From Thiocapsa sp. (GTDB taxonomy: Bacteria > Pseudomonadota > Gammaproteobacteria > Chromatiales > Chromatiaceae), in contig NZ_CP073760.1 in assembly GCF_018399035.1 (NCBI RefSeq), forward strand, positions 4,464,501 through 4,528,500: a stretch of DNA of 64,000 nucleotides, written 5' to 3'. The notes under the pieces were generated by a model. The model worked only from the letters and a program-made list of their open reading frames with translations. It searched no databases and was not told the DNA's origin. Positions 19,926 to 25,963 of the stretch are shown piece by piece (the stretch's first letter is position 1; every line of letters begins with the position of its first letter). The position numbers and the translations under genes are program-made.

Positions 19926-20001
19926 GCTGGCGTAGCTCAGTTGGTAGAGCAGCTGATTTGTAATCAGCAGGTCGTCGGTTCGAATCCGTCCGCCAGCTCC
20001 A
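19926..20001 (+). tRNA. tRNA-Thr (UGU)
   Basis: 76 bases including encoded CCA. Acceptor stem GCTGGCG pairs with CGCCAGC, followed by T and CCA. D-arm GCTCAGTTGGTAGAGC, anticodon arm CTGAT-TTGTAAT-CAG with anticodon TGT, and T-arm GTCGGTTCGAATCCGTC. All four arms fold. It reads codon ACA (and relatives). An IS66-type element begins 29 bases downstream. Confidence 0.97.
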
Positions 20002-20107
20002 ATAAAACAACGACTTAGCTGTAACGCGCCGTAAACATTCGGTCACGCCTTCCGGGACGCAGAGAAAGTACGGGACACAGACGTAGAAATCACGTACAAC
20101 GTGTGTC

Positions 20108-21811
20108 ATGGAAGGCACGACACGTCTCGATCCATCTGCGGAGCGACCGCATCCATGCCTCGGCACGGCTGACGGCAAGGGGCCGCGTTTCGCTCGGGAA
20201 TGGGTCACGATCAGCAAACAGGAGCACATTGACCTGCGTGCGCGGGCCAACTACTGGGAAGCGCAGCATGCCCGCGCGAAAGTCCAGGTCGAGGCGTTGA
20301 CGCAGGAGGTGGCGCGCAAAGAGGCCATCATCAAAGACCTGAGACGGCGGTTGTTTGGCAAGAAGAGCGAGAAACACAGTCCGCTGCCCTCGGAGAAGGA
20401 CCGAGGCGACGGCGACGACGCGCCCCAGCGCAAGCGCGGCCAGCAGCCGGGCTGTGCGGGGCATGGCCGGACCCCACGCCCGACGCTGCCCGTGGTCGCC
20501 GAACAGCACGCTCCGGCCGATGGGCAGAGCGCGTGTCCGCACTGCGGTTTGCCCTATCGGCGCACGCCGGCGCTGGACGAGGAAAGCGCGGTGATCGAGG
20601 TGCAGGTGCGCGCCTATACGCGGCGCATCACCCGGTGTGCCTACACCCGCGATCCCGGTTGTTGCTGCGAGAATACCCCGGCCGTGATCAGTGCACCGCC
20701 GCCGGCGCGGCTGATCGCACGCAGCCCCTTCGGCGTGAGCTTTTGGGTCGAGATGCTGCTGGGCAAATACCGCTACGGCCAACCGAGCAACCGCCTGCTC
20801 CAAGACCTCGCCGATCAAGGCTTGCCGGTCTCCCCCGGCACGCTCGCCGGTGGCCTGCAGCGTCTCACCGGGTTGTTCGAGCCGGTGCTCGAGGCGCTGT
20901 ACTGCAAGCAGATGAGCGAGACGCTATTCAACAACGACGAGACCCGCTGGGAGGTCTTCGTCGAGCTGGAGGGTAAGGTCGGGACGCGTTGGTATCTGTG
21001 GCTGACGCGCTCGGCCTCGGTGGTGTTCTACTGCATCGATCCGAGCCGCAGCGCGGCGGTGCCCGGCGCGCATTTCGCCGGCTTGCAGGGGCAACAGGCG
21101 ATCATCGTCTGCGATCGCTACAGCGCCTACAAAAAGCTCGCGCGCTTGGCCGAGAACATTTTGCTGGCGTTCTGCTGGGCGCACGTGCGCCGCGACTTTC
21201 TGGAGGCCGGGCGCGCGCTGCCCGCGTTGGAACCTTGGGCGCTGGTCTACCATCTCAACCAACAGCGTCTGGCGCACTGGGATCCCGATCGCCCCTTGGT
21301 GCAGCAATGCGCGGCGTTCGAGCACGCGCAGGCGGCCTTGCAGGCGGCGCTGGCGGACCTGCACGCCGAGGCCGAACGGCTGTTGGCGCAGGACGACACC
21401 GACGCGACCCTGCCGAAGGTCGCCCGCGCCAGATGCAAGCGGGTGCTCACCAGTCTGCTACACCATTGGTCGGGGCTGACGGTCTTTGTCGCGCATCCCG
21501 AGGTGCCGATGGATAATAACCGTGCCGAGGAGACGATCCGCACGCCGGTCATCGGGCGCAAAAACTACTACGGCTCGGGTAGCCTGTGGAGCGCGCAGCT
21601 CGCCGCGACGCTGTTCTCCATCCTGCAGACCCTGGCGCTGTGGGGGATCAATCCCCGCGCCTGGCTCACCTGTTATCTCAACGCCTGCGCCGAGGCCGGC
21701 GGACAAGCTCCGAGCACGCTGGCGCCTTTCCTGCCCTGGTCGATGGATGCCGCGCGCCGTGCCGAACTGTGCCGACCCGCCGCACCACCGACCGGCATCG
21801 ACAGCTCATGA
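20108..21811 (+). CDS. IS66-family transposase (TnpC-type)
   Basis: 567 residues. Order: N-terminal coiled coil (AQHARAKVQVEALTQEVARKEAIIKDLRRRLFGKKSEKH), zinc-binding segment (SACPHCGLPYRRTP), the central region PARLIARSPFGVSFWVEMLLGKYRYGQPSNRLLQDL, and the DDE core with NNDETRWEVF, CDRYSAYKKLARL, and MDNNRAEETIRTPVIGRKNYYGSGS. The frame is intact. Its stop overlaps the DUF4338 start in ATGA, so the two should be translated together. Confidence 0.95.
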   Translation: MEGTTRLDPSAERPHPCLGTADGKGPRFAREWVTISKQEHIDLRARANYWEAQHARAKVQVEALTQEVARKEAIIKDLRRRLFGKKSEKHSPLPSEKDRGDGDDAPQRKRGQQPGCAGHGRTPRPTLPVVAEQHAPADGQSACPHCGLPYRRTPALDEESAVIEVQVRAYTRRITRCAYTRDPGCCCENTPAVISAPPPARLIARSPFGVSFWVEMLLGKYRYGQPSNRLLQDLADQGLPVSPGTLAGGLQRLTGLFEPVLEALYCKQMSETLFNNDETRWEVFVELEGKVGTRWYLWLTRSASVVFYCIDPSRSAAVPGAHFAGLQGQQAIIVCDRYSAYKKLARLAENILLAFCWAHVRRDFLEAGRALPALEPWALVYHLNQQRLAHWDPDRPLVQQCAAFEHAQAALQAALADLHAEAERLLAQDDTDATLPKVARARCKRVLTSLLHHWSGLTVFVAHPEVPMDNNRAEETIRTPVIGRKNYYGSGSLWSAQLAATLFSILQTLALWGINPRAWLTCYLNACAEAGGQAPSTLAPFLPWSMDAARRAELCRPAAPPTGIDSS

Positions 21812-22665
21812 GTCATCGCTACTGCGGGCGCGACTTCCAACCCGAGGAGATCGCGCTGATCCGCGCACTCATCGCCGAGGACCCGACCCGCAGACGCGCA
21901 GCGCTGTCGCGCTTGACCTGCCAAGCGCTCGCCTGGCACACCGTCAACGGCGGTTTGAAGGACATGTCCGCCCGGGTGGCCATGCTGCGGATGCACAACG
22001 ACGGGCTCATCACGCTGCCGCCGCCGCGCAACCGCCGGCCCGATGCGCGCGTGCGACTGAGCGCGCTCAGCGATCCGCAACCGCGGCTCGAGCGGCCGGC
22101 CTCGGCCCTCGGACCACTGACCTGGTCGCGCGTGCAGCACAAAGCCCAATCACGGCTGTGGAACGAACTCATCGAGCGCTACCATTATCTCGGTCATACC
22201 CTCTTGCCGGGGGCGCAGCTGCGCTATCTGGTCTACGCCGCCGAGCAGCCCGTCGCCGCGCTCGGCTTCGGTGCCGCAGCGTGGATGTGCGCTCCGCGCG
22301 ATCGCGACATCGGCTGGAGTCATGCACAACGTGAGCGCCATCTCCATCTGGTCGTCAACAATGCCCGCTTCTTGATCTTGCCCTGGGTCCACTCCAAAAA
22401 CCTCGCCTCCATGCTCTTGGCGCAGGCGGCCAGGATCCTGCCCGAGGATTGGCTGGCGGTCTACGGCTACCGCCCGCTGCTGCTGGAGACCTTTGTCGAG
22501 ACACCGCGCTTCCGCGGCACCTGCTACAAGGCCGCCAACTGGACCTGCTTGGGACAAACCAAAGGCCGCGGAAAACTCGGCCAGGCCGGAAAACAAAGCG
22601 AACCCATCAAGGACATATGGATTTACCCGCTGGACCGACGCTTCCGCGAAGTGCTTACCCGTTGA
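21808..22665 (+). CDS. DUF4338 / DruA-like protein inside an IS66 element
   Basis: 285 residues from the ATG at 21808. It matches the DUF4338 family, to which Druantia anti-phage protein DruA belongs: FQPEEIALIRALIAEDPTRRRAALSRLTCQALAWHTVNGGLKDM, WNELIERYHYLGH, GAQLRYLVYAAEQPVAALGFGAAAW, NNARFLILPWVHSKNLASMLLAQ, and VETPRFRGTCYKAANWTCLGQTKGRGK. It starts inside the transposase stop (ATGA). The rest of a Druantia operon (the large DruE helicase and others) is absent. The molecular role is unknown; it could aid transposition or act on incoming DNA. Both are inference. Confidence 0.85.
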   Translation: MSHRYCGRDFQPEEIALIRALIAEDPTRRRAALSRLTCQALAWHTVNGGLKDMSARVAMLRMHNDGLITLPPPRNRRPDARVRLSALSDPQPRLERPASALGPLTWSRVQHKAQSRLWNELIERYHYLGHTLLPGAQLRYLVYAAEQPVAALGFGAAAWMCAPRDRDIGWSHAQRERHLHLVVNNARFLILPWVHSKNLASMLLAQAARILPEDWLAVYGYRPLLLETFVETPRFRGTCYKAANWTCLGQTKGRGKLGQAGKQSEPIKDIWIYPLDRRFREVLTR

Positions 22666-22730
22666 TTCTGATGGGTAGGGGTAGACCGAATATTTACAAC
22701 GCGCCCAGGCCGTTTTCCGTTGAGGGGCAT

Positions 22731-24164: not shown

Positions 24165-24861
24165 ATGAGTGACCCGCAAACCGATGTTCAGCACGACATC
24201 GCCCTGTTTCGCTACGGGGTGATCGCCGAGTTCGTGCCGTGGCCCAAAGAACGGAAGGGCCTGTATGAGGCGATCCAGGCGAAAGCCGAGCGTGAGCACA
24301 CCATCCCCGGCAGCGCCCGCACCGGGTGGCCGCCGAGACCATCCGCGATTGGCTCAAGGCCTATCGGCGCGGCGGCTTCGACGCACTCCTGCCCAAACCG
24401 CGCGCCGATCGCGGCCAGGCGCGCCGGCTGCCGCCCGGCGTGGTCGAGGCGCTGCTCGCCGCCAAGGAGGCCAACCCGCAGCTGTCGGTGCAGTTGGTGA
24501 TCCGCGCGGTGCGCCAACGCCCCGAGGTCCCGCCCGACCTGCCGTTGCCGCCCTCGACCGTGCATCGGTTGCTTGCCCGTCACGGCCTGATGGACGCGGC
24601 CAAGACGGCGAGTCAGACGCAGGACCGGCGCCGGTTTGCTTTCGAGCAGGCCGGGGAGCTGTGGATGAGCGACGTCATGCACGGTCCGGCCGTGGTGGTC
24701 GGGGAGCGCGTCAAACGCAAGACCTACCTGATCGCCTTCATCGACGATGCGACCCGCGTGATCCCGTACGCGCGCTTTGCCCTCTCGGAGAACACCCGGA
24801 CCTTTCTGCCGGTGCTCGCGCAGGCGATCCTGCGCCGTGGCTTGCCGCAGAAGCTCTATGT
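24165..24861 (+). pseudogene. Mu/IS481-like DDE transposase, 5' part (frameshifted, then interrupted)
   Basis: Starts MSDPQTDVQHDIALFRYGVI at 24165. At about 24322 one base seems lost (CGCACCGGGTGG, where CGCACCCGGGTGG would keep frame), after which the protein continues AAETIRDWLKAYRRGGFDAL (helix-turn-helix) and ELWMSDVMHGPAVVVGE with the first catalytic Asp. The gene breaks off at QKLYVD, where foreign sequence TTATGTGGCATGCCACATAA begins. The remainder is at 29470-30135. Two independent lesions inactivate it. Confidence 0.8.
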
Positions 24862-24900
24862 GGATTATGTGGCATGCCACATAATCCACATGCCTCTTTA

Positions 24901-25963
24901 TGCATTCCAGACAGTTCCCGACAGAGTCGAGGCGGGGAGCCTTGGAGAGCACTGGATGCAGCACGAGGCGGGCCGTGGGGGTAGAATACTGTCCCTTTCG
25001 AAGTGGCCAGGCAGTGCGCCCCATGTTGAACATCCAGAATCTCGTCGACGACGCCAAATGTTTCGAGACCGTCCGTGCCCTGCGTTGGCCCGAGGGGGTG
25101 CGCTGCGTGCACTGCGCCTCGGCCGAGATCAACAAGCAAGGTCGGGATCCGACGCAACCCGAGCGGCAGAAGTACCGCTGCAAGGACTGCGGGCGCTGGT
25201 TCGATGATTTGAGCGAGACGATTCTGGCCGGCCATCATCAGCCACTGCGAACCTGGGTGTTATGCCTGTATTTCATGGGCTTGAACCTGTCCAACCGGCA
25301 GATCGGCCAAGAACTGGGCCTTCACAAGGATGACGCCCAGCGCATGACGCAACAGTTGCGCGAGGGCATCGAGTCCAAGCAGTCCTTGCCCGTGCTCGAC
25401 GGCGAGGTCGAGGCCGACGAGGTGTACGTGGTCGCCGGTCACAAAGGGAACCCCGAGGCGGTAAAAAAAGCGCGCAAAGGCCGTCGGCGCCGACTGAAGG
25501 GGGCGCGCGGTCGCGGCACCCTGGCCAAAGAGAAGCCACCGATTCTCGGCCTGATCCAGCGCGGCGGCGAGGTGGTGCTGCGGATGCTGGATAACGTCCA
25601 ACAGAAGACCATCAAACCCATTATCCTCGCCTGCGTGGCCGAGGGGACGCGCTTCTACACCGATGAGTATGACATCTACGCCCGCTTGCCGGCATGGGGT
25701 TACGAGCACCACAGCGTCTGCCACAGCCGCGGAGAGTACGCCCGCGACGAGGACGGTGATGGCTTCCATGAGGTCCACGTCAACACCATCGAGGGCGTCT
25801 GGTCGTTGCTGCGCTCCTGGCTGCGCCCTCACCGCGGGATCTCTCAGGAACACCTCCCGATGTACCTGAGCTTTTTTCAGTTCGTCCACAACAGTCGTGC
25901 GCGCGGGAAGGGGCTCCTCCCGGCGCTCTTGGCAGCGCTGATTGTCTAGCTGTCTGGAATGCA
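24901..25963 (+). mobile_element. IS1595-type insertion sequence
   Basis: 1063 bp bounded by perfect 14-bp inverted ends TGCATTCCAGACAG (24901-24914) and CTGTCTGGAATGCA (25950-25963). It holds one intact transposase gene. The expected 8-bp target duplication is not visible (CCTCTTTA on the left, GATTGAGC on the right), so a flank may have been rearranged. It lies 11 bases left of the RIT element. Confidence 0.85.
25023..25949 (+). CDS. IS1595-family transposase
   Basis: 308 residues. N-terminal zinc ribbon CFETVRALRWPEGVRCVHCAS with KYRCKDCGRWFDDLSETILAGHH, helical TWVLCLYFMGLNLSNRQIGQELGL, then the ISXO2-like DDE domain: DGEVEADEVYVVAGHKG, TDEYDIYARLPAWGYEHHSVCHSRGEYARDEDGDGFHEVHVNTIEGVWSLLRSWLRPHRGISQEHL. 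The frame is intact. The ATG at 25023 follows a purine-rich stretch. The longer frame from 24900 only reads through the IS end. Confidence 0.92.
   Translation: MLNIQNLVDDAKCFETVRALRWPEGVRCVHCASAEINKQGRDPTQPERQKYRCKDCGRWFDDLSETILAGHHQPLRTWVLCLYFMGLNLSNRQIGQELGLHKDDAQRMTQQLREGIESKQSLPVLDGEVEADEVYVVAGHKGNPEAVKKARKGRRRRLKGARGRGTLAKEKPPILGLIQRGGEVVLRMLDNVQQKTIKPIILACVAEGTRFYTDEYDIYARLPAWGYEHHSVCHSRGEYARDEDGDGFHEVHVNTIEGVWSLLRSWLRPHRGISQEHLPMYLSFFQFVHNSRARGKGLLPALLAALIV

Follow-up and report, generated by a model that had tools for sequence, protein, structure and literature searches.

The element considered here lies in a 64,000-nt stretch of a Thiocapsa sp. genome (contig NZ_CP073760.1, positions 4,464,501 to 4,528,500; we call this whole stretch the window), and it raises the question of why an insertion sequence (IS) of the IS66 family should carry, coupled to its transposase gene, a gene of the family that Pfam calls "Druantia protein DruA". 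The answer we favor, with slightly better than even confidence, is that the element (20031-22697) is an IS66 insertion sequence with two coupled proteins, a DDE transposase and a transposition-coupled, Mom-like accessory that modifies DNA. The same kind of accessory is found again next to transposases of several unrelated kinds, or in one protein with them, a pattern suggesting that some mobile elements put chemical marks on DNA while they move.

The element is 2667 bp long and is filled by two frames in the list of open reading frames. Its left end, GTAAACATTCGGTC (20031-20044, plus strand; boundary identical in four other copies), and its right end, GACCGAATATTTAC (22684-22697, minus strand; reverse complement GTAAATATTCGGTC), form terminal inverted repeats that match at 13 of 14 bases, with one mismatch, and the 8-bp target duplication AACGCGCC stands on both sides (20023-20030 and 22698-22705). 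The first frame (20108-21811, plus strand) encodes P0002, a 567-residue IS66-family DDE transposase (PF03050, 171.8 bits; NF033517, 250.2 bits with a cut-off of 180). Its stop overlaps the start of the second gene in ATGA (21808-21811, plus strand). This second gene (21808-22665, plus strand) encodes P0001, a 285-residue protein that scores 152 bits against PF14236 (DruA/DUF4338; curated cut-off 27) and that we describe as Mom-like with a GNAT fold, from PF14236, PHROG 1384 and an AlphaFold2 model. A preliminary description of this locus had reported the ends, the 8-bp duplication, the two intact frames and the ATGA overlap, all of which the sequence and the other copies confirm to the base; the profile scores bear out its IS66 and DUF4338 assignments, and its remark that no druE-like helicase is present holds for an element that contains two genes only. 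Neither a TnpA nor a TnpB frame occurs within the element. These accessory proteins belong to classic IS66 members only, and single-gene members exist.

The Thiocapsa genome holds four copies (the window copy, L044, L048 and L049), and a broken copy (L065) is found in a relative, G010. They fix the left end independently, in that the blastn matches to L044, L048, L049 and L065 all begin exactly at 20031; at the right end, the matches to L044 and L048 stop exactly at 22697. Duplications of 8 bp surround the window copy, L044 (GTAGCGAA) and L049 (AGCGTCCT), and are absent from the flanks read around L048 and L065. The DruA-type gene is frameshifted in L048 and L049, and the transposase is frameshifted too in L049. 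Intact or frameshifted, the second gene accompanies four of the four close copies of the window transposase in this genome. Five other loci of the same genome (L041, L042, L043, L045 and L046) have a DruA-type gene upstream of a Tn5/IS4-type transposase, which is the opposite order to that of the window element; the stop and start of the two genes apparently overlap there as well.

To look beyond Thiocapsa, we scanned 84,980 bacterial and archaeal species genomes for relatives of P0001, of which at least 576 were confirmed, and examined the best 80. The preliminary description had named a pairing unique to this locus as the outcome that would speak against its proposal; besides the four copies in the genome, an IS66 transposase adjoins or is fused to 72 of the 80 nearest relatives. 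It lies just upstream in 62, downstream in 9, and within a single fused frame in one (L171, from Pirellulales, with PF03050 at residues 206-487 and PF14236 at 633-805). An IS66 profile hit occurs upstream on the same strand in 63 of the 80, including L104, which at a distance of 3.2 kb is excluded from the 62; in L135 the two genes are 299 bp apart. The overlap is exact and 4 nt long (NTGA, as ATGA, GTGA or TTGA) in 55 of the 63 relatives with an upstream hit, and still in 34 of 41 without the 22 loci from one Accumulibacter genome. The best 80 loci come from eleven phyla (Pseudomonadota, Thermodesulfobacteriota, Planctomycetota, Bacillota, Acidobacteriota, Bacteroidota, Actinomycetota, Spirochaetota, Verrucomicrobiota, Nitrospirota and Eiseniibacteriota).

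Several of these relatives are intact mobile units in their own right. Of the 14 Accumulibacter copies read, 13 have 8-bp duplications at the same ends (twelve of these units measure 2716 bp and one 2728 bp), and Acididesulfobacillus copies have them in three of three, around a 2714-bp unit. When the test is reversed, a DruA-type frame is found at 6 of 59 IS66 loci. Both L418 and L419, whose transposases are 45-47% identical to that of the window, are among those with such a frame (the genome of L419 was picked because the element was known there). The gene is also under purifying selection. Ratios of nonsynonymous to synonymous substitution (dN/dS; Nei-Gojobori) range from 0.07 to 0.21 for the DruA-type gene in nine pairs. 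Between the window copy and L044 the DruA-type gene has a ratio of 0.206 and the transposase one of 0.204, so that selection is equally strict on both. The PF14236 gene is a fixed, co-translated part of the element lineage and not "cargo" in the usual sense.

IS66 is one of several transposase families with which the DruA-type domain is associated. Fusions, confirmed by Pfam or NCBIfam, place the domain N-terminal to an IS4/Tn5 transposase in L054 (NF033590, 411 bits; 9-bp duplications in two of two copies of this type), to one of IS4_1, another IS4 subgroup, in L246 (168 bits), to IS701 transposases in L255 (299 bits) and, recognized by DDE_5, in L261, L263, L295 and L317, and to the ISAs1-type PF13808 in L060. 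In the fusions to IS66 transposases (L171 and L249) the domain is C-terminal. Unfused genes stand upstream of transposases of the Tn5 type (L046), of IS701 (L107, 275 bits), of ISKra4 (L276, 248 bits) and of the PF13808 type (L298, L299, L301, L305 and L319), and in L146 the gene lies between TnpB and the IS66 transposase, an arrangement that L159 shares by eye.

Two further samples, chosen without regard to pairing, comprised 398 genomes of the window's phylum and 299 genomes of the phylum of G480. Among the IS-type loci fetched, 28 of 39 have a fused or adjacent transposase (5 of 9 and 23 of 30, respectively), where "adjacent" means a match to one of twelve home-made profiles, which miss families outside these. 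Thirteen regions were fetched from the first sample, four of whose nine IS-type loci are fragmentary, carry frameshifts or reach a contig edge; the 41 regions from the second are mostly the stronger matches. Over both samples, several IS-type loci that have no transposase are fragments or lie at contig edges. On the tree of these domains, partner labels switch at least 29 times, compared with a possible minimum of 15 and a shuffled mean of 88.5, and partners have therefore been inherited, yet swapped repeatedly. The link between DruA-type proteins and transposition that the preliminary description had suggested is thus supported both by the IS66 pairing and by the fusions to several transposase families.

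Two observations on the spread of the domain may be added. The genomes of L109 and L168 (G462 and G484) each contain at least 46 PF14236 matches, many in fused frames of about 700-800 residues, and appear to be colonized by several kinds of DruA-type elements. In L320 (993-6566), a frame of 1858 residues ends in a DruA-type domain and has no other Pfam domain; here an element has perhaps inserted in frame into a long gene.

What P0001 does is approached through its relatives. It matches only one PHROG, 1384 ("Mom-like DNA modification protein"; 5.1e-5), which is also the sole PHROG matched (at 0.001) by 39 of the 48 members of an alignment of its relatives. The Pfam Mom family (PF25680) is matched at 0.01 by 17 of these 48, P0001 not being among them. 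In an hhalign comparison, 26 IS-borne proteins aligned with 11 phage Mom-like proteins at 96.5% (9.2e-10) over 167 columns, and a profile of 20 ordinary GNATs reached 0.1-0.3% with either the IS-borne or the Mom profile. The AlphaFold2 model of P0001 (pLDDT, the predicted local distance difference test, 89.9; pTM, the predicted template modeling score, 0.72) has as its top Foldseek match in the PDB the Mom protein of phage Mu (8bv8; 5.7e-5), and VIA-align likewise places 8bv8 first (Z 13.8, 3.6 Å, 167 residues; next entry 12.1). The model divides into an N-terminal helical domain of two short strands and three helices (residues 1-70; 21808-22017, plus strand), which looks winged-helix-like by eye, and the Mom-like GNAT-fold domain (residues 99-285; 22102-22662, plus strand; delimited by VIA-align against 8bv8_A and by hhalign).

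The hhalign pairing also superposes candidate active-site residues: H126, Y127, R187, N198 and S201 of P0001 correspond to H48, Y49, R101, N111 and S114 of Mom (231-residue numbering), and T228, E231, Y240 and N244 to S136, D139, Y149 and N153. Among 109 representatives of the IS type, H126 (codon at 22183-22185, plus strand) and R187 are invariant, and 108 have serine at S201 (22408-22410, plus strand) and 108 glutamate at position 227; at position 231, 53 have E and 48 have D. The serine is of particular interest. S114 is S124 in the numbering of 8bv8, and we equate it with the S124A of that entry's title ("inactive mutant") because it is there that the 8bv8 chain departs from the sequence of Mu Mom.

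A number of observations weigh against a Mom-like modifier tied to transposition. Seven of the 80 nearest relatives have no IS66 hit, several of them standing with other transposases, and 53 of the 57 more distant IS66 loci are without a DruA-type frame (4 of 57 have one); for IS66 transposition in general, the DruA-type partner is dispensable. The identity between P0001 and Mom is about 16%, and single-sequence matches are weak. Ordinary GNATs come close behind Mom by fold (FeeM, 9.1e-5; hNaa60, Z 12.1), and the fold alone therefore shows only a GNAT and does not fix the substrate. In the Foldseek viral library, proteins without a name come first and a Salmonella phage Mom follows at rank 6. 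With its 20 highly diverse sequences, the GNAT profile may not be a strong control.

The closeness of other GNATs leads to the main rival of DNA modification, in which P0001 would acylate a protein (the transposase itself, a DNA-bending protein of the host or the replication clamp) and so switch transposition on or off. The GNAT fold is what such an enzyme would have, protein and small-molecule acetyltransferases follow Mom closely in the structural lists, and fusion to a transposase would suit a transposase regulator, too. By sequence, however, only Mom-like families are matched besides PF14236, and the ordinary GNAT profile is not; moreover, among the residues that P0001 has in common with Mom is the serine at which a mutation makes Mom inactive. 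Since the partners span several unrelated transposase families, only a host factor could serve all of them as protein substrate. We consider regulation by protein acylation unlikely.

Alternatively, P0001 might be a non-catalytic DNA-binding subunit, in which the N-terminal helical domain and a dead GNAT fold help to find ends or targets. The predicted N-terminal domain agrees with such a role, as does its absence from the ISAs1 fusions, where the transposase might itself bind DNA. Conservation of H126, R187, S201 and E227 in 108-109 of the 109 representatives, together with the low dN/dS values, is better suited to an active site, and a purely binding role seems to us quite unlikely.

A third possibility, which we regard as very unlikely, is that P0001 is a Druantia-like defence protein directed at phages or rival elements. 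It belongs to the same Pfam family, as its PF14236 score indicates, and the profile of 14 short Druantia DruA proteins compares with the IS-borne family at 96.4%. That same profile reaches 0.2% with Mom, and Druantia profiles gave no match to Mom with the long forms included or with short or long forms alone, so that the Mom alignment is obtained only with the IS-borne form. At the position of the Mom-like His, Druantia DruA reads WSVPVS-like, and at that of the Ser LLGGKL-like (the alignment is weak there). The PADLOC DruA models score 268-701 bits for three short Druantia-type proteins (701 for L069) and 384-592 bits for two long ones; P0001 gets no match from them at an E-value of 1, L060 and L171 get none either, and L058 scores 22 bits. 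A tree of 131 domains (rows thinned at 80% identity) places all 22 Druantia-type rows together beyond a very long branch (Shimodaira-Hasegawa-like approximate likelihood-ratio test, SH-aLRT, 100) and the window protein among the 109 IS-type rows; the tree is unrooted, with no outgroup, and hence gives no direction of descent. None of the 17 Druantia-type frames in the two samples described above (0/4 and 0/13) has a fused or adjacent modelled transposase. On plasmids, a DEAD/DEAH helicase stands within the stretch shown at six of the eight Druantia-type loci read.

The Druantia connection that the preliminary description had drawn for the window gene is therefore not supported, to judge by PADLOC matching, clade, coupling and Mom alignment; IS-borne and Druantia members, which it had proposed to compare in a DUF4338 tree, do not mix there, and our analysis found nothing to support its idea that the element uses the gene against rivals. 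On its further suggestion, that Druantia may have taken its DruA from such elements, the unrooted tree is neutral. Membership of P0001 in a Druantia system was accordingly rejected, there being no PADLOC match, a separate clade and a two-gene element with no DruE-type helicase. As observations on Druantia-type genes themselves, in L078, L085 and L324 DruA is fused to an apparent NTPase (weak nSTAND3/AAA and weak SspF hits; L085 by translation), a possible separate defence architecture, and in Pseudomonas putida plasmid pKF715A (L185, 6342-10242) a Druantia druA lies 440 bp downstream of the end of a complete IS66 element (TnpA, TnpB, TnpC), which is probably chance, though a hint of how both could meet. 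A DruA-like protein has also been noted in Synechococcus phages (PMC12774648). For P0001 itself, a tblastn search of 50,697 phage records found no phage relatives.

Finally, we give almost no credence to a neutral passenger kept by hitch-hiking, which would accord with the distant IS66 loci that do without the gene but not with purifying selection that matches that on the transposase in strength, a conserved 4-nt overlap, and repeated association or fusion with unrelated transposases.

Returning to a Mom-like modifier, we picture its action as follows. While the transposase sits on the DNA, the enzyme would attach an acyl-type group to a base of the element or of the target (in Mom the acceptor is adenine N6), translational coupling or fusion serving to keep both activities on the same DNA at matched amounts. 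The group could protect the DNA of the element and the intermediates of transposition against nucleases and restriction by the host, in the way that Mom protects Mu, or it could mark the element ends or the target and thereby tune transposition. Everything beyond the term Mom-like, that is, the modification activity itself and the choice between protection and regulation, we infer. Protection or marking of the element's own DNA seems to us the likelier use, and the data can be explained without any attack on rivals. More broadly, insertion sequences of at least five transposase families may repeatedly have recruited, and partly fused, a Mom-like DNA modifier to give a "writing" transposase; the proteins that Pfam calls DruA would then be transposon-borne DNA modifiers at root, with Druantia DruA a chemically altered offshoot. 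This generalization is tentative, and we regard it as possible, short of probable.

If these proposals are correct, some insertion sequences carry their own DNA-base modification, which to our knowledge is otherwise found only in phages and restriction-type systems, and transposons gain a possible means to escape restriction or to tell donor from target. An insertion sequence with an accessory gene is of a known kind; the accessory here is unusual, and we found no report of an IS-borne DUF4338 or Mom gene in the open-access PubMed Central (PMC) literature. The Pfam name is also an annotation trap, as it covers hundreds of transposon genes whose active site is nearer to that of phage Mom than to Druantia, and the IS-borne Mom-like family offers a handle on what DruA itself does.

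The surroundings of the element call for two remarks. A tRNA-Thr gene occupies 19926-20001, and the left target duplication begins 21 bases past its end. Among 26 other element loci scanned, only L137 (Accumulibacter) has a tRNA, also for Thr, within about 50 bp of its end (in L132 the tRNA is 2.3 kb away), and with a nearby tRNA at only one of these 26 loci, tRNA-directed insertion was rejected in favor of chance. Further along the window (24326-25949), a transposase-like frame beginning at 24326 is seemingly interrupted by an IS1595-like element (frame 24900-25949), judging from the translations.

The element may be compared with four known systems. It agrees with IS66-family elements in its PF03050 transposase, 8-bp duplication and GTAA... 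ends; some DruA-carrying members retain TnpA-TnpB (L146, and L159 by eye), whereas the window element has the Mom-like gene instead. Druantia DruA (PADLOC PDLC00001 and PDLC00002) shares with P0001 the PF14236 domain and an RD-x-x-IGW region, but is about 370-720 residues long or more, has an extra C-terminal part and is often helicase-adjacent, and unlike the IS-borne protein it has no Mom-like His or Ser, forms a separate clade and is uncoupled from transposases. A DUF4338-DndF fusion is similar in that DUF4338 is recognized there, too, as GNAT-like, although the passage of PMC10853773 that uses this term is about defence ATPases, with no mention of transposases or of Mom. The fourth system is Mu Mom, a methylcarbamoylase (8bv8, PF25680, PHROG 1384). 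Enzymes of the Mom type take an acyl group from an acyl-CoA and place it on adenine N6, which protects the DNA of the phage (PMC7824862). Like P0001, Mu Mom has a GNAT-fold domain, with equivalent residues at H48, Y49, R101, N111, S114, D139, Y149 and N153, and is carried on a transposing element. P0001 differs in its extra N-terminal domain and its low identity, and the IS-borne proteins are co-translated or fused with a transposase, whereas Mu mom stands behind a late promoter under the control of Com (annotation of the Mu record).

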